Part shown: one piece after another, positions 1 to 35,056 of the stretch
How positions within the stretch are numbered: the stretch's first letter is position 1
Layout of the letters: the number at the start of each line of letters is the position of its first letter
Source: a virus
Virus record (IMG/VR): IMGVR_UViG_3300032236_000302
Location: 1-35,056 of that record
Length of the DNA: 35,056 bases
Direction: 5' to 3' (one strand)
Notes under the pieces: model-generated
Seen by the model: the letters and a program-made list of their open reading frames with translations, nothing else
Told to the model about the DNA's origin: nothing
The model's database searches: none
Position numbers and translations under genes: made by a program

Positions 1-123
1 CCACAACCCCGCAAGCCGCTGACGGATGAGCAAAAGAAAAGTATTGCTAGAAGGGCGTTTAAAGATATTTGTAAAGATTATCCTGTGCAAGACAGGATTA
101 TTCTTGTAATCAACGACATTGAA
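1..123. repeat. Terminal direct repeat, left copy
   Basis: These 123 bases are identical, base for base, to the last 123 bases of the window (34934-35056). The repeat is internal to one open reading frame that continues across both ends in the same frame, so joining the ends gives a closed circle of 34,933 bp. The length equals a k-mer value used by some metagenome assemblers, so it is more likely an assembly overlap of a circular or circularly permuted genome than a true packaged terminal repeat. Confidence 0.97.
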
Positions 124-153
124 GCCGCCCACGGCATAGGAGTTGACAAATGA
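1..153 (+). CDS. 3' end of junction-spanning PQPR-cassette protein
   Basis: This is the C-terminal part of the gene that begins at 34370; frame 1 is open from the first base and ends with TGA at 151-153. It encodes a PQPRKPLTDEQ segment, then a basic helix, and ends in GIGVDK. When the circle is closed the whole protein has 238 residues. The stop overlaps the start of the next gene (ATGA, 150-153), so the two are translationally coupled. The role is unknown; the EPVA...YTHPQPR...LTDEQ architecture is common in small phage and prophage proteins of proteobacteria without an assigned function. Confidence 0.85.
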   Translation, partial: PQPRKPLTDEQKKSIARRAFKDICKDYPVQDRIILVINDIEAAHGIGVDK

Positions 154-617
154 ATCAAAAAATGACTAAAAAATTGCTGTTTGAAAAAGTTGATTACAAC
201 GCGGAAACAGGTGTCTTTACATGGAAACGAAATGGCGATGTTGCTGGTTATCCAAAATCAAATGGTTACATGCAAGTAAGAATTGATGGCAAATATTATT
301 TGCTTCATAGGCTTGCTTGGTTGTATGTGTATGGAGAATTTCCATCAATGGATTTAGACCATATAAACCGTGTACGTTCAGACAATAGATTGTCAAATTT
401 AAGATTGGCAACTAAATCCACAAATCAACAAAACAGGTCGTTGCAAATCAATAACCAATCTGGTGTCTCAGGCGTTGTTTTTAACAAACAATGCAAAACA
501 TGGAACGCAAGAATAAAAGCAAATAAAAAATTAATTCATCTTGGTTCTTTCAAATCATTTGATGATGCTGTTATTGCTAGAAAAAAAGCCGAAGAATTAT
601 TATGGAGTAAGACATGA
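150..617 (+). CDS. HNH endonuclease with AP2-like C-terminal domain (copy 1)
   Basis: A 155-residue homing-type endonuclease. The central part has the HNH_3-like signature: HRLAWLYVYGEFP, then the DHIN metal-site motif, then DNRLSNLRLAT. The last 50 residues (SGVSGVVF...W.ARI...LGSF.S...A) have the layout of an AP2/ERF-type DNA-binding domain. The start ATG overlaps the preceding stop (ATGA) and has TAGGAG 7 bases upstream. The gene is clearly AT-richer than its neighbours, consistent with recent transfer as a free-standing mobile endonuclease. It is closely related to the gene at 33882-34373, and the two flank the junction gene. Target site and any nicking activity are inference. Confidence 0.88.
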   Translation: MNQKMTKKLLFEKVDYNAETGVFTWKRNGDVAGYPKSNGYMQVRIDGKYYLLHRLAWLYVYGEFPSMDLDHINRVRSDNRLSNLRLATKSTNQQNRSLQINNQSGVSGVVFNKQCKTWNARIKANKKLIHLGSFKSFDDAVIARKKAEELLWSKT

Positions 618-931
618 ACATTCCAAAAATTGAAGAAGCAATCACATTGCTATATCAAACATTCATTGAAGATCAAAACGTTGCCACTCAACGAGGCATA
701 GCAATTACAGCCATGAATGAAATGGTCAAGTTGCTTGGCGGAGATAATGTTATTGAAAAGATTGAAGTAGTCCCGTATTCAGCCAGACTTAGAACGCAAC
801 ATTTGTTTGAAGATAAATTACAACCCCGCACATGGGTTGGGCTGACACCAGAAGAACGGGATGAAATCTGTTTGGGGGATGAAAGCATCGCCCGAGACGT
901 TGAAGCCAAACTCAAGGAGAAGAACACATGA
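614..931 (+). CDS. Small PQPR-cassette protein A
   Basis: A 105-residue cytoplasmic protein of unknown function. The first 65 or so residues are unique and helical (IEEAITLLYQTFIEDQNVATQRG). The rest is the shared cassette: QPRTWVGLTPEER, an acidic stretch, then EAKLKEKN at the very end. The same cassette ends the next two genes. The start overlaps the HNH stop (ATGA) with GGAG 6 bases upstream. The codons for KLKEKN contain AAGGAG, which is the ribosome-binding site of the next gene. No catalytic motif is visible. Confidence 0.8.
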   Translation: MNIPKIEEAITLLYQTFIEDQNVATQRGIAITAMNEMVKLLGGDNVIEKIEVVPYSARLRTQHLFEDKLQPRTWVGLTPEERDEICLGDESIARDVEAKLKEKNT

Positions 932-1371
932 AAACCTGCGAATGTGGAGAACCAACCGATAGCTACAAATGCAGCCTGTGCCAAGCGGACGAGTCTGTTG
1001 GCCTAGCACCCAAGGCAGAGCAGGATGAGCCTGTGGCGTGGAACGAAGACCAAGCATACGCATGGGGCAGAGGTTGTTATGAAACCGCGCAAACACCAAC
1101 AACAAAATCATGGAAGCTCTTTGGGCAATTAACCCCAAGAGAGCAAGCGTACTGGGTTGCAAAAGCCGCATTTAAGCAATCCATTCCGCAACCCCGCAAA
1201 TGGGTGGGGCTGACGGAGGAAGATATGGAAACCGCAGAAGAGTTTGGGGTGAAAGAGTATCGCCAATGGAAATCAAAAATACGGGGACAGCAGATCACGC
1301 CGCAAGACAACCCGCAATGGCACATTTACAAAGCCATTGAAGCCAAACTCAAGGAGAAGAACAATGGATGA
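928..1371 (+). CDS. Small PQPR-cassette protein B with N-terminal Cys-rich segment
   Basis: A 147-residue protein. The N-terminus has four cysteines in two close pairs (CECGEP...CSLC), which looks like a small zinc ribbon. It is followed by a PKAEQDEPVAW module, a middle unique part, and the shared cassette PQPRKWVGLTEED ending in IEAKLKEKNNG. The start overlaps the previous stop (ATGA) and is served by AAGGAG inside the previous gene's last codons. A 31-bp stretch at 1008-1038 matches 34621-34651 in the junction gene with one difference, showing module exchange inside the operon. Function unknown. Confidence 0.8.
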   Translation: MKTCECGEPTDSYKCSLCQADESVGLAPKAEQDEPVAWNEDQAYAWGRGCYETAQTPTTKSWKLFGQLTPREQAYWVAKAAFKQSIPQPRKWVGLTEEDMETAEEFGVKEYRQWKSKIRGQQITPQDNPQWHIYKAIEAKLKEKNNG

Positions 1372-1579
1372 AATTACACGATTTGATATGGACATGGATG
1401 GATCAATGGAGCCATCAGAGCATGGTCAATGGGTTCGCTACGAAGATGTGCCACAACCCCGCACATGGGTAGGTCTGACACCAGAAGAACGAAGCAATTG
1501 TCGATATTGGGCGTGTGAAGATTTTGAAACATTTGGTCGTGCTATTGAAGCCAAACTCAAGGAAAAAAACAATGGATGA
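1364..1579 (+). CDS. Small PQPR-cassette protein C
   Basis: A 71-residue acidic protein: MDEITRFDMDMDGSMEPSE, then the shared cassette PQPRTWVGLTPEER and the tail AIEAKLKEKNNG. The chosen start (ATG at 1364) overlaps the previous stop by 8 bases (ATGGATGA) and has AAGGAG 7 bases upstream, encoded by the previous gene's KEK codons; the longer reading from 1337 lies inside gene B and is unlikely. The same 8-base overlap recurs at its own end, which suggests that this gene's 3' end and that of gene B derive from one duplicated segment. Function unknown. Confidence 0.75.
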   Translation: MDEITRFDMDMDGSMEPSEHGQWVRYEDVPQPRTWVGLTPEERSNCRYWACEDFETFGRAIEAKLKEKNNG

Positions 1580-1688
1580 TGATATTTGGAACATCATCAT
1601 GCTTTGCACAATCCTGTTTATGGGAGCAGGACTGTTTACATTTCTTGTGATTGTCTTGTTGGCGTTCTTTGATTTTTTAACTGATTAA
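1572..1688 (+). CDS. 38-residue single-span membrane peptide
   Basis: Reads MDDDIWNIIML, then a long hydrophobic stretch (CTILFMGAGLFTFLVIVLLAFF), ending FLTD. One transmembrane helix covers most of the protein. It starts in the 8-base ATGGATGA overlap with gene C. It is the last gene of the rightward operon, and its final 12 bases overlap the 3' end of the endolysin gene on the other strand. Similar in size and design to the peptide at 33779-33895. Function unknown; superinfection or membrane-modulating roles are possible but unsupported. Confidence 0.6.
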   Translation: MDDDIWNIIMLCTILFMGAGLFTFLVIVLLAFFDFLTD

Positions 1689-4438: not shown

Positions 4439-4762
4439 TTAACCAATCCTGTACCAAGTTGAATTGGCAGACCGATACATATAACAAGCAAAACCACCAG
4501 CAGTAAATGCGGTCAAAGCATTTAACAAAGTCTGTCCAGTATTTGCGCTTAATGTCAAAGCTGTGATGATTTGAGTTGAAGCAACACGAACTTGCATCCC
4601 GTCTGTGGGTGATGCAGGCATGGTGACTGTACCTGTTGCCAATGTCCCTGATGGGTTAAATACAGTAACTGGCGAAGTTAATGTATATGAAAAACCAGTA
4701 GAAGGAGTTTGGTAATCATAAGGCCCACATGAGCCTTGGCTGCCATCAATAACCATTGTCAT
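4439..4762 (-). CDS. Short virion/fibre-type protein
   Basis: A 107-residue Ser/Thr/Gly-rich protein without membrane segment. It has the alternating, beta-rich composition of short phage fibre tips (FSYTLTSPVTVF, GMQVRVASTQ, ALTLSANTGQ, STWYRIG at the end). GAGG lies 6 bases before the ATG. It ends a block of fibre-related genes just before the lysis cluster. A tail-tip or receptor-contact role is inferred from composition and position; no catalytic motif is seen. Confidence 0.65.
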   Translation of the reverse strand: MTMVIDGSQGSCGPYDYQTPSTGFSYTLTSPVTVFNPSGTLATGTVTMPASPTDGMQVRVASTQIITALTLSANTGQTLLNALTAFTAGGFACYMYRSANSTWYRIG

Positions 4763-4770
4763 AGATCACC

Positions 4771-5196
4771 TCAAACGTTAGCGGTAATAGCAGTTTGCAC
4801 AGGTGCAACAGCATCACGCAAACCTTGCGTAGTGGTCGCAGCGGCAATCGCTGTACGGGCTGTTGTCAACAATGCCAGCCAATCAGAATCAGCCAGTTTA
4901 TTCTCAATGCCAGCGCCTGTGTTTGTTGCACGATGGCTTGCTTCACCTTTAGCCAAGGCGTTCAAGTTAGCTTGCTGTTGGGCAATAGCTTTGGTAATAT
5001 TTACAGTAACGGTTGAGCCGTTAAGTTCCCATGAATTGAAAAAGTCACCATCTGCATTAGGCAGGGTGCTATCGTCAACAATGACGGAATGATTGGGCGT
5101 GTCTTTTGTTTTGACCGCTTGAATGTCAAGCTCTCCTGTGGGTACGCAGACCGAGACGCCGCCGTTGTCGTTTGTGTAGAGGATTACTTGTGCCAT
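4771..5196 (-). CDS. Fibre-associated protein, tail-fibre-assembly-like
   Basis: A 141-residue protein with the N-terminus ILYTNDNGGVSVCVPTGELD and SVIVDDSTLP, a layout common in small phage proteins encoded next to fibres and often annotated as tail-fibre assembly or tail-tip proteins. The second half is helical and Ala-rich (ITKAIAQQQANLNALAKGEA). AAGGA lies 6 bases before the ATG. It could be an assembly chaperone or a minor structural protein; the sequence does not decide. Confidence 0.65.
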   Translation of the reverse strand: MAQVILYTNDNGGVSVCVPTGELDIQAVKTKDTPNHSVIVDDSTLPNADGDFFNSWELNGSTVTVNITKAIAQQQANLNALAKGEASHRATNTGAGIENKLADSDWLALLTTARTAIAAATTTQGLRDAVAPVQTAITANV

Positions 5197-5208
5197 GATG
5201 ATTCCTTT

Positions 5209-5607
5209 TTAGTTGCCGTGAACGGTAAAACAAACAATTGCTGGGTCATACTCTCCAGCAGACCTTTGATCTGTGACCATGTTAAAACTTGTTGTGGTAG
5301 GTGTTGTTCCCCAAGCAATAACAGCAACGCCACCATCATTGGTAGAGCTTTGAGCAAACATTGTTTGCGATATGCAATAGTTTGCATCTGATAACGCATT
5401 AGCAAAAGTAATTGTGTAATTACCCAACGAGTTTCTTGTTACGGAACTGACGTTATAACTTGCGTTACGAGTTCCAGAAGTGCCATTAAAGTTCACCCAA
5501 GCCAAAGCATTGGTGGTCACGCCGTTAGATTGCACCTTGATTACACCAGAACCGTCTGCGGTCTGGACTAATCCGTTTGATGGGGATGCGTTTAAAATTG
5601 TGGTCAT
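5209..5607 (-). CDS. Short fibre-type protein, paralogue of the next gene upstream
   Basis: A 132-residue beta-rich protein. The core AWVNFNGTSGTRN...YNVSSVTRN..GNYTITFANALSDANY matches the core of the 5617-6003 product (AWVQFNGSSG...FNISSVTR...AYTINFANALPDANY). This domain is common at the receptor-facing end of phage fibres. AAGGA precedes the ATG by 6 bases. The two genes are tandem duplicates that have diverged strongly in their last 45 residues, as expected for receptor-binding variation. Confidence 0.75.
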   Translation of the reverse strand: MTTILNASPSNGLVQTADGSGVIKVQSNGVTTNALAWVNFNGTSGTRNASYNVSSVTRNSLGNYTITFANALSDANYCISQTMFAQSSTNDGGVAVIAWGTTPTTTSFNMVTDQRSAGEYDPAIVCFTVHGN

Positions 5608-5616
5608 TGTGAGTCC

Positions 5617-6003
5617 TTAACGGAAAATGGCAACAGCGCCATAACTTGTGTCATAGTTTGTTCCACCAACTCCGTTATAAATTGAAATGCTTGATGAACT
5701 ATAACTAGTCATAAACATATAAAAATTTGATCCAGTTGAACCACCAGACATACTTGTAAATGAATAATTTGCATCTGGCAAAGCGTTAGCAAAGTTAATT
5801 GTATAAGCGCCTGTCCCTGTTCTAGTTACTGAACTAATATTAAAAGATGCTCTGATAACAGGACTAGCACCAGATGAACCGTTGAATTGCACCCAAGCAC
5901 GACACAAAGTACCAATCTGAGTACCTGATCCATCTTGAAATTGTGTAGGCGTTCCTGTCGTACTTGACTGAATAACGTCTGAGGCTAATGTTCCGTAACT
6001 CAT
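5617..6003 (-). CDS. Short fibre-type protein, paralogue of the next gene downstream
   Basis: A 128-residue beta-rich protein sharing the AWVQFNGSSG...SSVTR...YTINFANALPDANY core with the 5209-5607 product. The C-terminal half is Ser/Tyr/Gly-rich and variable (FMTSYSSSSISIYNGVGG). AGGAG lies 5 bases before the ATG. It probably forms part of a tail-tip or fibre-end complex; the direct attachment partner cannot be read from the sequence. Confidence 0.75.
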   Translation of the reverse strand: MSYGTLASDVIQSSTTGTPTQFQDGSGTQIGTLCRAWVQFNGSSGASPVIRASFNISSVTRTGTGAYTINFANALPDANYSFTSMSGGSTGSNFYMFMTSYSSSSISIYNGVGGTNYDTSYGAVAIFR

Positions 6004-6011
6004 GTTTTCTC

Positions 6012-6692
6012 CTACAAAACTACCCAGCGTGAACCGCTAGGAATTGTAACTGTAACGCCGCTTGCAATGTTGATTGGCCCAACACTCATCCCACCATTAT
6101 TTGCGTTTAATGTGAAATTGGCTGAAATTGTTTGATTGTTTTGGTAAACAACACCACTAGCAGAAGCTCCGCTAGATGCCCAATAAGACCCGTTCCATGT
6201 CTCAGGCAAACCAGTAGTTGAGTTGTACCCAATCAGACCGATGGTAGGAGCGCCTGGTCGTGTTGCTGTTGTCCAGTTGGTCAATCCAACGCCGTAAGTG
6301 CCGCCAATAATCCCTGTGCTGGTAATCGTAGCTACAACAGACGAGTTGTATTTGAAGTTAAGCGTTGTGCCAAGGGTAGACGGTGCAATCGAGAAATTAC
6401 CAAACGATGCGTTGCCGTTGCCAGGTGCATCAACTTGCACATCCCAAATCAGATTGTTGTTTACGTCATACACCTGCTGACGATACGAGCCAGTACCGTA
6501 AGCGATACATTGACCGTTTGCATCCAACACAATCGGATTGGTGTTAAGGGTATTCCCTGCATCATCCTGATATGTGTTTTTAAACGTGGTCGTGTTGGGG
6601 ATGTAATAGTAAACCTTGCCTGAAGCTAACGGGTTGCCGTTAGAGTCAATGAACTGCTGTTTACCATTGGGAAGGATTGCGTAGGTTGTCAT
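6012..6692 (-). CDS. Tailspike-type head-binding adaptor with short fibre C-terminus
   Basis: A 226-residue protein. The first 90 residues (FIDSNGNPLASGKVYYYIP..., TYQDDAG, NPIVLDANGQC, YRQQVYDVNNNLIWD) have the pattern of P22-tailspike-like head-binding domains that fix spikes or fibres to the virion. The C-terminus (TISANFTL...GPINIASGVTVTIPSGSRWVV) is a small fibre-end module that also closes the product of 11428-11694. There is no catalytic spike domain between the two, so this is likely an adaptor or short fibre. AGGAC precedes the ATG by 7 bases. Confidence 0.75.
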   Translation of the reverse strand: MTTYAILPNGKQQFIDSNGNPLASGKVYYYIPNTTTFKNTYQDDAGNTLNTNPIVLDANGQCIAYGTGSYRQQVYDVNNNLIWDVQVDAPGNGNASFGNFSIAPSTLGTTLNFKYNSSVVATITSTGIIGGTYGVGLTNWTTATRPGAPTIGLIGYNSTTGLPETWNGSYWASSGASASGVVYQNNQTISANFTLNANNGGMSVGPINIASGVTVTIPSGSRWVVL

Positions 6693-6694
6693 GT

Positions 6695-8797
6695 TTATTG
6701 TCCTGTCGGTACGCCTGAAATTTCAATGCGAGGAATAGGTTGTTTGCTGGCTTGACCAAGCATTAACAATTTCAAGGCATTAGCATCAGCAGGACTTAAT
6801 TTTTCAAATGGACTTGCCATTTTTCCAAGTCCATAAGCGCTCATGCCAATTAACTTAGGGCTTTCAACTGGCAACGCTGCCAAACCCATCAAGGCCTCTG
6901 GATGCCCCATTAAAGCCGCTGAACCCATGCCACCTAATCCAAGCAAAGCACCACCTTGAGCAGCCAAGCTACGAGGAGTCCATGTGTTCATGGCTTGACC
7001 CGCCAAAGCAGGCATTAATTGTTTTGCACCTTCTTGGTTTTCAAGTTTGTTAACCAAATCTTGACGATAACCATAATTTGTATTTACATTGTTACGCATC
7101 ACAGATTGAAGTTTTCTAAGTTGCGTATCAATAGAAGCCTTACCGCCTTGACTCAATGCTTTTTTGATCTCATCCAAAGATTCCATACCTTCGGAATAAT
7201 CTTTCATAACATTAGCGTAAGTTGGAGCTTGTTCACTAATGTCATTTTTAACAGCGTTATAAACATTGTTAACAACAGATCGACCGCTTTTTTCCTCAAA
7301 CGGAATTTTTTCAGTCAAATCATAAATTTTTTGTTTGAGTAAATCAAAACCTTCAGGCGTATGAAATTTCTCAGGGTCTAATGTTTTCCAATGTTGGACA
7401 GCATCATTGATTTTTTGCCAAGCATTGGCAGCAGATTCTTTAATAACTTCGCCATGTCTAATGCCATAACTTTTAGCATTTTCAAGAGCTTTATCAACGT
7501 TGTCAAAATTCAAAATTGTCTTGTCGTTTTTAATGTCAATCATGCCATTTCGATAAGCATTAGACATTGCATCTTTCATTTTTGCAATATTGAACTTGGC
7601 ATCTTCAACAACTTGACCTTTATCAACGGCATTTGAAAGATTGTCCCAAAATTCAGTCAAGCCTTTTTTGCCTGAGTTATAGGCTTCTTTTACGGCGGTT
7701 GGGCCAACTCCTGAAGTAAAACCCAATGCTTCAGCCGTAGCGTTTCCTGCTTTGTTTAAAGCGGGAGCAATTGAAGGCATCACAGCACCAGTTAAAGCGC
7801 CAGATTCTAGATTTTGTTTAATTTGATCCCAATAGTTGCCTTCTCCAACAACAGGTTGAGCAGCAGAATACGCGCCGCCAACACCAGCGCTTCCAATTGT
7901 TTTACCAGCCAAACTAGCCGCACCTTGAACGCCTTGACCTAATCCAAGTTTGGCAGCAGCTTCTCCGCCTTTTAAACCAAGTTGTTCAATCAAATTACCG
8001 CCGCCAGACAAAATTGCTGGCAAAACTTCACCAGCCGTAGCGCCCAAAACAGATGCTGTATTTGTTGGAACGTTTGCTTGATAACCTTGTTCGCGTTGTT
8101 GGGCAGCCAAAACGTCTTGATTAGCAATGTTTTGGATGTATTTAGCAACAGCAGAATCAGGAGCAATCGCATTAACACCGCTTGCAACACCTTGCTCGAC
8201 CAAGTTAGCCAATCCGTGAGGCAAGTTCATCAAATGATGACCAAAGGCTTGTGCCGCTTGCATTGGATTGCCAATCAATGATTCTGATTGTGCTGGCGCG
8301 TTTTGTGGTGTTTCTGGTGCTGGTTTTGTAATCTGATTAAACAACGCATCTTCTTCTGGCGTTGTTGCAATTGGTTCAGGAGCTTTTTCAGATTTTTTAA
8401 TCTTATTAAAAAGTTCATCATCATTACCGTGATTCAGGTAAGACATGACCTTTTGAACGTGAGCTTCTGTTTTTGACCCCCAGTTGGCTTTGTCTGTGCC
8501 ACCATGATATGCGCGAACAGCATCTTCTGGATTGCCATAGCGATCAAGGTTTTCAGCCAACAACTTAGCAATAGCTGGAATTGCTTCTTTTGGATCGTTG
8601 GGATTTTTAATACCAAGCGATTTAGCAGTAGGAGCAATGAATTGCCCTAAACCTTTAGCTGTGCCATATTTTGTTTGTGGCCCTTCAGCATTAGGATTCC
8701 AGCTTGATTCAGCTTGAATAGCCGCAGAAATCAATGCGGGATCGACATTGTGTAGCCGACCAGCCTCGTCAATTAATTTCTGAAAATCGTCATTCAT
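6695..8797 (-). CDS. DNA-ejection protein with N-terminal lytic transglycosylase domain
   Basis: A 700-residue protein. The first 130 residues are an SLT/lysozyme-like domain: HNVDPALISAAIQAESSWNP holds the catalytic Glu, followed by GTAKGLGQFIAPTAKSLG and YGNPEDAVRAYHGG. The rest is long, helical and Ala/Gly-rich, as in P22 gp16- or T7 gp16-like ejection proteins that enter the cell ahead of the DNA and open the peptidoglycan. I chose ATG 8797, one base after the upstream stop, with AGGA 8 bases ahead. It is the last of a three-gene ejection set. Confidence 0.85.
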   Translation of the reverse strand: MNDDFQKLIDEAGRLHNVDPALISAAIQAESSWNPNAEGPQTKYGTAKGLGQFIAPTAKSLGIKNPNDPKEAIPAIAKLLAENLDRYGNPEDAVRAYHGGTDKANWGSKTEAHVQKVMSYLNHGNDDELFNKIKKSEKAPEPIATTPEEDALFNQITKPAPETPQNAPAQSESLIGNPMQAAQAFGHHLMNLPHGLANLVEQGVASGVNAIAPDSAVAKYIQNIANQDVLAAQQREQGYQANVPTNTASVLGATAGEVLPAILSGGGNLIEQLGLKGGEAAAKLGLGQGVQGAASLAGKTIGSAGVGGAYSAAQPVVGEGNYWDQIKQNLESGALTGAVMPSIAPALNKAGNATAEALGFTSGVGPTAVKEAYNSGKKGLTEFWDNLSNAVDKGQVVEDAKFNIAKMKDAMSNAYRNGMIDIKNDKTILNFDNVDKALENAKSYGIRHGEVIKESAANAWQKINDAVQHWKTLDPEKFHTPEGFDLLKQKIYDLTEKIPFEEKSGRSVVNNVYNAVKNDISEQAPTYANVMKDYSEGMESLDEIKKALSQGGKASIDTQLRKLQSVMRNNVNTNYGYRQDLVNKLENQEGAKQLMPALAGQAMNTWTPRSLAAQGGALLGLGGMGSAALMGHPEALMGLAALPVESPKLIGMSAYGLGKMASPFEKLSPADANALKLLMLGQASKQPIPRIEISGVPTGQ

Positions 8798-32105: not shown

Positions 32106-32281
32106 TGAAAGATTGTTATGCAATTATGAAAGAATCAATTTATACGCCAATTTTTGGTTTTGCAAGACAAAAGATTGATTGTGTTTGTATTGACAAAAAA
32201 ACAGCATTAAAAATTAAAAAACAAAAAAATGAAAAAGCAACAAAATATTTTTATTTTGTAAAGAAAGTAAAACTCTTATGA
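32105..32281 (+). CDS. 58-residue Lys-rich early protein
   Basis: Reads MKDCYAIMKESIYTPIFGFA, RQKIDCVCIDKKTALKIKKQ, then KNEKATKYFYFVKKVKLL. Very AT-rich, basic, with two Cys near the middle (CVC). It starts one base into the previous stop (TGATG) and overlaps the ERF gene by ATGA, so it belongs to the chain. Function unknown. Confidence 0.68.
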   Translation: MKDCYAIMKESIYTPIFGFARQKIDCVCIDKKTALKIKKQKNEKATKYFYFVKKVKLL

Positions 32282-32880
32282 AAAACATCGCAACAGCACT
32301 CGTCAAAGCACAAAAGGCTTTTGGCCCTGCTTTAAAGACCTCTACAAACCCGCATTTCCGTTCACGCTACGCAGACCTTTCCGCTTGCGTTGAAGCGGTT
32401 ATAGACGCTTTAAACAACAACGGCATCTACCTGCTTCAGAAGAACTACGACTGCGCCGATGGCATCATGGTTGAGACTGTGTTTGTCCATGAGTCAGGCG
32501 AGATGCTTGAATGTGGCATTGTTCACTTTCCAGCCACCAAGAAAGACCCACAGGGCTACGCATCAGCGCTTACCTATGGTCGCCGTTATTCATTGATGGC
32601 AGCTTGCGGTATCGCCCCAGAAGATGATGATGGCAATGCCGCCAGTAAACCAGTACCCAAACACACACCGACCAAACCCGTTGAACAAATGGTCAAAGAA
32701 GATCGCAAAGAAAACTTGTTAACCTCCGCCAAATTTATTGTTGCCAGCATGGATGCAGGCGAAATGGATGAAGCATTAAAAGAATGGGAATCAATCACCG
32801 ACCCAGAGGAGAAAACTTATCTCTGGTCTTTGTTAGACAGCAAGTATCGTTCAGCAATCAAGAAAGCAAAAAATGTTTAA
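32278..32880 (+). CDS. erf: ERF-family single-strand annealing protein
   Basis: A 200-residue recombinase of the ERF family. The N-terminal annealing domain has IATALVKAQKAFGPALKTS, NPHFRSRYADLSACVEAVID and the hallmark PQGYASALTYGRRYSLMAAC with GIAPEDDDGNA. The C-terminus is a Pro/Lys linker plus a small charged helical domain. It promotes recombination and circularisation of phage DNA; a nearby small protein with SSB-like tail is a likely partner. Coupled upstream by ATGA. Confidence 0.93.
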   Translation: MKNIATALVKAQKAFGPALKTSTNPHFRSRYADLSACVEAVIDALNNNGIYLLQKNYDCADGIMVETVFVHESGEMLECGIVHFPATKKDPQGYASALTYGRRYSLMAACGIAPEDDDGNAASKPVPKHTPTKPVEQMVKEDRKENLLTSAKFIVASMDAGEMDEALKEWESITDPEEKTYLWSLLDSKYRSAIKKAKNV

Positions 32881-33792: not shown

Positions 33793-33895
33793 TATTGGCG
33801 TAGCAATCGTAGTCACAATATTTATTGTTGGCGGGGCTTTGGCTTTATACGCTGACGCTGTAAAACATCCTTGGTCGGAGGATGAAGATGAATAA
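33779..33895 (+). CDS. 38-residue single-span membrane peptide
   Basis: Reads MDWIDIGVAIVVTIFIVGGA, LALYADAVKHPWSEDEDE. One membrane helix and a strongly acidic tail. It overlaps the previous gene by 14 bases and the HNH gene by 14 (or 8) bases. Size and plan match the peptide at 1572-1688. Function unknown. Confidence 0.62.
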   Translation: MDWIDIGVAIVVTIFIVGGALALYADAVKHPWSEDEDE

Positions 33896-34373
33896 AGAAT
33901 ATTTAAATGAATTATTGGATTATGACCAAGAAACAGGAATGTTTACTTGGAAAATTCGCAGGGCTGGAAAAGCATTGGCCGGATCAAAAGCAGGTTGTAA
34001 AGACAAAGACGGTTATATAGTTATAAACATTAACAATAAACCATTTTTTGCACACAGAATTGCTTTGATGATGATTTATGGAAATTTAGAAAATAAAAAA
34101 GTAGATCATATTAACGGCATACGAGATGACAACAGAATTCAAAATTTGCGTCTTGCAACAAATGAATTAAATATGCAAAATCAAAAAAAAGCTCATGCAA
34201 ATTCAAAATCTGGATTACTTGGCGTTAGTTGGAGCAAATCTAATAAAAAATGGATTACGCAAATTAGATTTAAAGGAAAAATAAAATATTTAGGTGGATT
34301 TGATTGCAAATATGAAGCGTATGAAACATATCTAAATGCAAAACGTATTTTTCATGAAGGAAACACATTATGA
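33882..34373 (+). CDS. HNH endonuclease with AP2-like C-terminal domain (copy 2)
   Basis: A 163-residue homing-type endonuclease. HRIALMMIYGNLENKKVDHING and DDNRIQNLRLATNELNMQNQ form the HNH part; SGLLGVSWSKSNKKWITQIR, KIKYLGGFD form the AP2-like end. It is related along its length to the 150-617 product. Two starts are possible (33882 or 33888); GGAG sits just ahead of the first and 7 bases ahead of the second, so 33888 is slightly better. Very AT-rich compared with the flanking genes. Confidence 0.87.
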   Translation: MKMNKEYLNELLDYDQETGMFTWKIRRAGKALAGSKAGCKDKDGYIVININNKPFFAHRIALMMIYGNLENKKVDHINGIRDDNRIQNLRLATNELNMQNQKKAHANSKSGLLGVSWSKSNKKWITQIRFKGKIKYLGGFDCKYEAYETYLNAKRIFHEGNTL

Positions 34374-35056
34374 GCATTGAAGCAATGAAACAGGCGCTTG
34401 AGGCGTTGCAGGTTGCAACCACACCGTTAGCAAAAGATAGACAAGAAGTTTTGAGAGCCATCAAAGCCCTAGAAGAAGCACTAGCCAAGCAAGAGCAGCA
34501 AGAGCCTGTGGGCGAAGCATATTTGTGCGACAGATGTTATACGCCGTTTGATGGTGCTTATATGTGTCCAAGTTGTGGGCATAACCAAGCTACTAAAGAG
34601 GCTGTCTACACCCACCCACAACCCAAGGCAGAGCAGGGTGAGCCTGTGGCGCAACATCGTGATTTGCATGGTCACATGATGGTAGTTGCGCATCGAGCCT
34701 CCGACAAAGTGACAAACAATGGGCAAAAATTTGTAAGCCAAAAAGAAGTTGTCCGCGCTATATGCAAAGCAATTCAAGACGACAAAAACCTTATTTCAAA
34801 ACTTACACCTCCAGCCAAGCAAGATCAAGATAAGCCTGTGGCGGTGGTTACTGGCGTGTACGGTGGACGGTTCATTGTTGAGCCAACAAACTCAGCAATG
34901 GTGCTGCCCGTCAACATGGCGCTCTACACCCACCCACAACCCCGCAAGCCGCTGACGGATGAGCAAAAGAAAAGTATTGCTAGAAGGGCGTTTAAAGATA
35001 TTTGTAAAGATTATCCTGTGCAAGACAGGATTATTCTTGTAATCAACGACATTGAA
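34370..35056 (+). CDS. Junction-spanning modular protein, 5' part
   Basis: First 229 codons of a 238-residue protein that ends at 153 after circle closure. Order: helical start (IEAMKQALEALQVATTPLAK, then EVLRAIKALEEALAKQ), EPVGEAY, a zinc ribbon (CDRC...CPSC), YTHPQPKAEQGEPVA, a unique middle, KPVAVVTG, and YTHPQPRKPLTDEQ. The repeated EPVA / YTHPQP units look like duplicated modules; the same style is common in phage and prophage proteins of unknown function. It shares ATGA with the HNH gene before it. Confidence 0.85.
   Translation, partial: MSIEAMKQALEALQVATTPLAKDRQEVLRAIKALEEALAKQEQQEPVGEAYLCDRCYTPFDGAYMCPSCGHNQATKEAVYTHPQPKAEQGEPVAQHRDLHGHMMVVAHRASDKVTNNGQKFVSQKEVVRAICKAIQDDKNLISKLTPPAKQDQDKPVAVVTGVYGGRFIVEPTNSAMVLPVNMALYTHPQPRKPLTDEQKKSIARRAFKDICKDYPVQDRIILVINDIE
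34934..35056. repeat. Terminal direct repeat, right copy
   Basis: Identical to bases 1-123. The reading frame entering here continues in frame at base 124, which confirms that the ends join. Confidence 0.97.

Follow-up and report, generated by a model that had tools for sequence, protein, structure and literature searches.

The window analysed here is the whole of IMG/VR virus record IMGVR_UViG_3300032236_000302, a stretch of 35,056 nucleotides. Positions 1-123 are identical to positions 34934-35056, and because of this exact 123-bp direct repeat at the window ends the record is closed and the operon described below continues across them. The window is therefore a closed phage genome, and its cassette operon runs through the record ends in the order 238-aa gene, HNH endonuclease, three cassette genes and 38-aa hydrophobic protein. 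The features of the operon are as follows.

34370..35056, continuing at 124-153, plus strand: first of the operon's cassette genes, encoding 238 aa once the record is closed (reading frame open to the record end; 123-bp repeat)
121..150, plus strand: second tail type, EAAHGIGVDK (from the sequence and from relatives)
150..617, plus strand: HNH endonuclease gene (Pfam HNH_3 and PHROG 99)
614..931, plus strand: cassette gene 1, 105 aa
821..859, plus strand: QPRTWVGLTPEER cassette of gene 1 (from the sequence; repeat family D8)
902..931, plus strand: tail EAKLKEKNT and stop of gene 1; AAGGAG 914-919, spacer 8 nt, ATG 928, ATGA overlap 928-931 (4 nt)
928..1371, plus strand: cassette gene 2, 147 aa
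1186..1221, plus strand: PQPRKWVGLTEE cassette of gene 2
1339..1371, plus strand: tail EAKLKEKNNG and stop of gene 2; AAGGAG 1351-1356, spacer 7 nt, ATG 1364, ATGGATGA overlap 1364-1371
1364..1579, plus strand: cassette gene 3, 71 aa
1451..1489, plus strand: PQPRTWVGLTPEE cassette of gene 3
1547..1579, plus strand: tail EAKLKEKNNG and stop of gene 3; AAGGAA 1559-1564, spacer 7 nt, ATG 1572, ATGGATGA overlap 1572-1579
1572..1688, plus strand: 38-aa hydrophobic protein, started by the last tail

Cassette genes 1 to 3 gave no significant match to curated Pfam or PHROG profiles. Gene 1 contains LQPRTWVGLTPEER and closes with VEAKLKEKNT, while gene 2 (PQPRKWVGLTEED) and gene 3 (PQPRTWVGLTPEER) both close with IEAKLKEKNNG. 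The initial annotation had described a cassette beginning PQPR and an EAKLKEKN end shared by three consecutive genes, and this holds except that the first copy begins LQPR. It had also placed an AAGGAG at the correct distance from the next ATG, which is right for the first two copies (8 and 7 nt) but not for the third, where ctcaaggaaaaaaac gives AAGGAA. The 8-base ATGGATGA overlap noted at the ends of the last two genes is exact at 1364-1371 and 1572-1579, and the first junction is a 4-nt ATGA. At all three junctions (928-931, 1364-1371 and 1572-1579) the stop overlaps the next start, and the Shine-Dalgarno site (SD) is 7-8 nt away, inside the upstream gene. The start of the 38-aa protein (1572-1688) also follows KLKEKNNG tails at loci L071 and L380-L384.

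A fourth cassette gene in the window is the one that crosses the record ends (34370 to 153). It carries an N-terminal MSIEAMKQALEALQ module, a sister cassette PQPRKPLTDEQ and the tail EAAHGIGVDK, in which AGGAG at 138-142, written within the codons GGC ATA GGA GTT, lies 7 nt 5' of the ATG of the next gene at 150. The two tail types within the window serve the same role. The HNH gene started at this ATG (150-617) is cleanly inserted between two cassette genes, with GGAG at 604-607 near its own end, before the ATG at 614. According to Pfam and PHROG it is one of two free-standing HNH endonuclease genes (150-617 and 33888-34373) located exactly between genes of the operon, and their starts and stops overlap in the same way (…AAGGAAACACATTATGA before 34370).

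IMG/VR was searched with a pattern covering all codons for EAKLKEKN, and at least 120 stretches were found. Among the matches listed, 162 of 164 with a unique context, the window included, lie no more than 7 codons from a stop; most of those listed carry a WVGLTDEE-like cassette, and most are then followed by an overlapping start. The same pattern retrieved only 59 stretches from bacterial and archaeal genomes (257 Gb), mostly internal in proteins, the cassette-like ones being found mainly in proteobacterial metagenome contigs. A chance origin of the tail pattern is excluded. Related matches occur in the circular phage records DSL-LC04 and DSL-LC05 from Dishui Lake, whose deposited annotation has 4-nt CDS overlaps. 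At L049 an 849-aa protein beginning MRFGSVCSGIEAASVAW (4726-7275, minus strand), which we take from its appearance to be a DNA cytosine methyltransferase, ends in AAIKEKRNG with AAGGAG before a ATGGATGA overlap, so that this type of tail is not confined to small proteins.

One explanation for such conservation is that the peptide tail is itself selected, for binding, localisation or stability of small early proteins, and that AAGGAG is a by-product of Lys-Glu codons beside an ordinary overlapping start. In its favour, conservation of the peptide is good, bacterial proteins often have Lys-rich ends, and a few tails (at L029, L162 and L508) keep the peptide without an SD or a downstream gene. 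The choice of codons, however, argues against this explanation. It had been proposed that AAGGAG would be conserved beyond what the amino acids require, and this was borne out: the KE pair of the EAKLKEKN tails among the matches listed is written AAGGAG in 128 of 162 and AAGGAR in 154 of 162, whereas over all KE pairs of those loci AAGGAG accounts for 16.7% (79% versus 17%), and among internal EAKLKEKN sequences of bacterial proteins it is found in 3 of 42. The excess also surpasses synonymous recoding, since an SD match of at least 6 nt is present in 79% of KLKEKN tails versus 36% after recoding, in 62% of RSKN tails (n = 8) versus none, and in 43% of RAHGIGG tails versus 6%, and the 4-nt SD core is present in 95% of RAHGIGE tails versus 28%.

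Selection on the peptide also fails to account for tails in which the site is kept and the peptide is not. KLRSKN tails, AAACTAAGGAGCAAGAAC (ctAAGGAGc), retain AAGGAG in another reading frame and encode RS instead of KE. The tail type RAHGIGGE is an unrelated peptide with a purine-rich site at the same place as in the KLKEKN tail, and a third tail, IRARG(Q/E/N)x with an AIRARG end, occurs in loci with EREACAKVC proteins (e.g. L023, L148 and L190). In the IRARG tails the second Arg is AGG or AGA in 64 of 64 cases against a background of 23%, while the first Arg, two codons earlier, is mixed; before ATGA this usually gives AAGGGG, which is the weaker SD when matched strictly, or else AGAGG. Natural swaps are also seen, in which one domain carries unrelated SD-bearing peptides in the same place: the DYFAAKAM domain, with 29 members, ends in KARGxx, KAREA, KERNK or RRAHGIGE, and hybrid tails such as AHGIKENT at L419 also occur.

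The presence of a start codon follows the site closely. A start lies near the stop in 183 of 193 KLKEKN tails, in 126 of them in the ATGA form, and in all 147 AAGGAG tails examined a start codon is found 4-14 nt downstream. The cases that had been named as evidence against the proposal, KLKEKN without AAGGAG or without a downstream gene, do exist, but they are rare and mostly run in the predicted direction. AAGGAR is missing from 14 of 193 KLKEKN tails, ten of which have a start, and in the five startless tails, two of which are close relatives, the site is lost in four and reads AAGGAA in one. This loss of the SD where no start follows is again not expected if the peptide is what is maintained, and we regard selection on the peptide as very unlikely to be the main cause.

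The suggestion that the tail DNA would be found next to unrelated downstream genes was confirmed, as the 324 N-terminal segments that follow it fall into 213 BLAST clusters, of which 168 are singletons. Nine downstream clusters stand behind both KLKEKN-type and RAHGIG-type tails. Positional information is close to 2 bits along the tail as far as ATGA, and about 0.1 bit immediately beyond it. On the upstream side, the tail is also fused to some proteins without the WVGLT module, and there are about 20 candidate cases, several of them clear, in which the tail moves alone.

Gene order was compared across 474 loci, in which 420 locus pairs involve tail genes, and in five distinct cases tails are present on the upstream gene and on each of the inserted genes. 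At L229 a RAHGIGE-ended gene is followed by a gene beginning MWILITFVYQ; at L269 a DYFAAKAM gene stands between the two and ends in RRAHGIGE, not in its usual KAR-type tail. Likewise, at L049 a KLKEKN-ended gene is followed by MIHTDEDDEF, and at L068 two extra genes lie between, both KLKEKN-ended. The initial annotation had viewed the cassette as a duplicable stop-and-restart unit that appends genes, and these pairs match that prediction in that the inserted genes bear the tail of the junction; as comparisons of relatives they suggest such a process, and its direction may be gain or loss. Two arrangements of tail DNA at other loci were also observed. At L198 and L265 the SD/stop segment after a RAHGIGE tail is tandemly repeated (TAGGAGAA TAGGAGAA ...), as if the restart site had expanded, and at L472 a second copy of AAACTCAAGGAGAA, tail DNA that does not code for the tail, lies just past the stop of a KLKEKNCL tail and before the next gene (TAATGAAACTCAAGGAGAATCATTATGAAC).

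The conservation is not limited to the SD. The GAAGCC that begins the tail and the GGGCTGACGGATGAG that encodes part of WVGLTDEE are as biased at synonymous sites as the SD, and thus the proposal that the peptide is kept for the start of the next gene is supported, but the SD as the sole reason for conservation of the DNA is not. In the WVGLTDEE segment of 115 genes, GGGCTGACGGATGAG is strongly fixed synonymously and the adjoining Val codon varies. Leu codons are shared more often between tails of one genome (54% versus 27%, permutation P = 0.002, a value that is indicative only, as descent among the sequences inflates P values), and this excess suggests that the whole cassette spreads as DNA, which is the simplest reading of the conservation beyond the SD. 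Two other candidates were rejected: a hidden out-of-frame gene at the ATG inside LTDEE (GGATGAG), where ORF lengths are as in controls (median 16 versus 14), and masking of the SD by upstream cassette RNA, where the unpaired probability is 0.62 for real and 0.60 for recoded sequences.

The conserved GAAGCC and WVGLTDEE DNA and the shared Leu codons could also be produced by an ordinary gene family, recently duplicated and spread, in which the SD is kept as in any overlapping pair and the rest by common descent; any ATGA overlap needs an SD inside the upstream gene. Other ATGA junctions of the same phages, however, have far fewer strong SDs. Across all cassette loci an SD match of at least 6 nt is found at 67% of ATGA junctions with the cassette versus 14% of those without, the latter including some false ORFs. 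In samples chosen independently of the tail, by fetching phages with the gene at 32278-32880 or the gene at 1677-2279, a match of at least 5 nt is found at 77% of KN-tail junctions versus 40% of other tight junctions. The IRARG junctions in these samples, which read AAGGGG, show no SD excess by this strict measure. A contrast of tight with non-tight junctions was not significant, the simple gene caller having missed short downstream genes. Common descent also leaves unexplained the SD-like sites of unrelated tails, the out-of-frame SD, the occurrence of tails on unrelated domains and a conservation that ends exactly at ATGA, and it does not predict tails that move alone. We therefore consider an ordinary gene family an unlikely explanation.

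A third possibility is that the cassette serves first of all as a site on the DNA, used in recombination, homing or some other DNA-binding activity, with the SD as a passenger. The placement of the two HNH genes (150-617 and 33888-34373) exactly between operon genes would fit such a site, as would the conservation of the non-SD parts and the gene at 32278-32880, which we presume from its family likeness to encode an ERF-like recombinase. However, the role is filled by three or more unrelated tail sequences that have only a purine-rich SD-like site in common, and a consensus scan of the coding strand (sigma-70 type only) across the three KLKEKN junctions detected nothing that resembled a promoter or terminator. 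A cassette that is first of all a DNA site appears highly improbable.

We think it probable instead that what is portable is a gene junction and that the common C-terminal peptides are its coding shadow, conserved mainly for two reasons: their DNA has to start the gene that follows, and the cassette spreads at the DNA level. The observations behind this reading are the sequences themselves, the codon bias, the conservation of out-of-frame and alternative tails, the promiscuity on both sides of the junction and the insertion pairs, and from them we infer both the translational step and recombination at the tail as a route of gene gain. On this reading the final 8-10 codons before a junction would house the SD for the following gene, usually at 4-11 nt from its start codon, which overlaps the stop in forms such as ATGA or ATGGNTGA. 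Having terminated there, the ribosome could immediately begin again on the second gene, as in standard translational coupling. The next start would be tolerated in either of the other reading frames, and since the tail also carries its own restart signal it may work before almost any gene. Recombination at the junction could insert, lose or swap a gene together with a copy of the junction, leaving the whole operon translatable. In many freshwater phages the tail precedes more than 200 different genes and appears to have been swapped between junctions as genes were added, as judged from the sequence comparisons.

Translationally coupled overlapping junctions, with a stop-start ATGA and an SD inside the upstream coding sequence, are common in phages and bacterial operons. 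The tails share with them the overlap geometry, the SD in the last codons of the upstream gene and the expected termination-reinitiation, but each ordinary coupled junction has its own sequence, whereas here one tail, or one of a few, recurs ahead of more than 200 different genes and passes from protein to protein. The nin region of lambdoid phages similarly has overlapping small genes with conserved start/stop boundaries, which have been proposed to guide recombination, and we know of no shared C-terminal peptide cassette in that region. Start-Associated Sequences (SAS, GGGATAGGAGCCC) of Cluster K mycobacteriophages are AGGAG-bearing repeats that stand a few nt 5' of the start codons of non-structural genes unrelated to one another; they are found predominantly at genes more than 50 bp from the upstream gene, and half of them have inverted repeats (PMC3203893). 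The tails differ in that they are protein-coding and overlap the next start, while SAS have mainly more than 50 bp of intergenic DNA upstream. The 13-bp SAS consensus GGGATAGGAGCCC is not found in the tails, as KLKEKN tail DNA is CTCAAGGAGAAGAAC and RAHGIG DNA matches only GGGATNGGAG. The RAHGIG tail DNA (GGGATTGGAGGTGA and GGAATAGGAG, e.g. at L204 and L226) nevertheless resembles SAS, a likeness that is probably convergence on 16S rRNA pairing. The PeSL mobile regulatory cassettes of T4-type phages (Arbiol 2010 and Comeau 2014, cited in PMC4503421), as far as that citing account describes them, combine an early promoter with a stem-loop and are linked to gene shuffling; like the tails they are short, recur at gene junctions and go together with the shuffling of small genes. 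On the same account PeSL is a transcription signal, whereas the signal of the tails is translational and coding, the three KLKEKN junctions having no promoter-like or terminator-like site in our consensus scan. The strings KLKEKN, ERAHGIG, WVGLTDEE and RAHGIGG were not found in the literature searched. Each ingredient is already known, but the portable coding tail appears undescribed; the apparent novelties are a portable element that lies in coding sequence, a single role filled by several unrelated peptide tails, and the exchange of the tail between unrelated proteins.

In a broader form, to which we incline by a small measure, there is a class of phage operon that grows by accretion at coding junctions. 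Selection would keep interchangeable tails (KLKEKN, RAHGIG, IRARG and relatives) for their use as portable restart signals, the ribosome-binding site of the next gene would dictate how dozens of otherwise unrelated phage proteins end, and recombination at the tails would add, remove or swap small genes with translation intact. Such tails would provide ready natural restart junctions for synthetic operons. They would also account for the look-alike C-terminal peptides of unrelated phage proteins and serve as a warning against reading function into conserved tails, as these peptides may be kept for the sake of the neighbouring gene. In uncultured freshwater phages the tails could be used as searchable markers of gene gain and loss, and they offer a concrete, testable account of how phages may add small genes to their operons while keeping them expressed.
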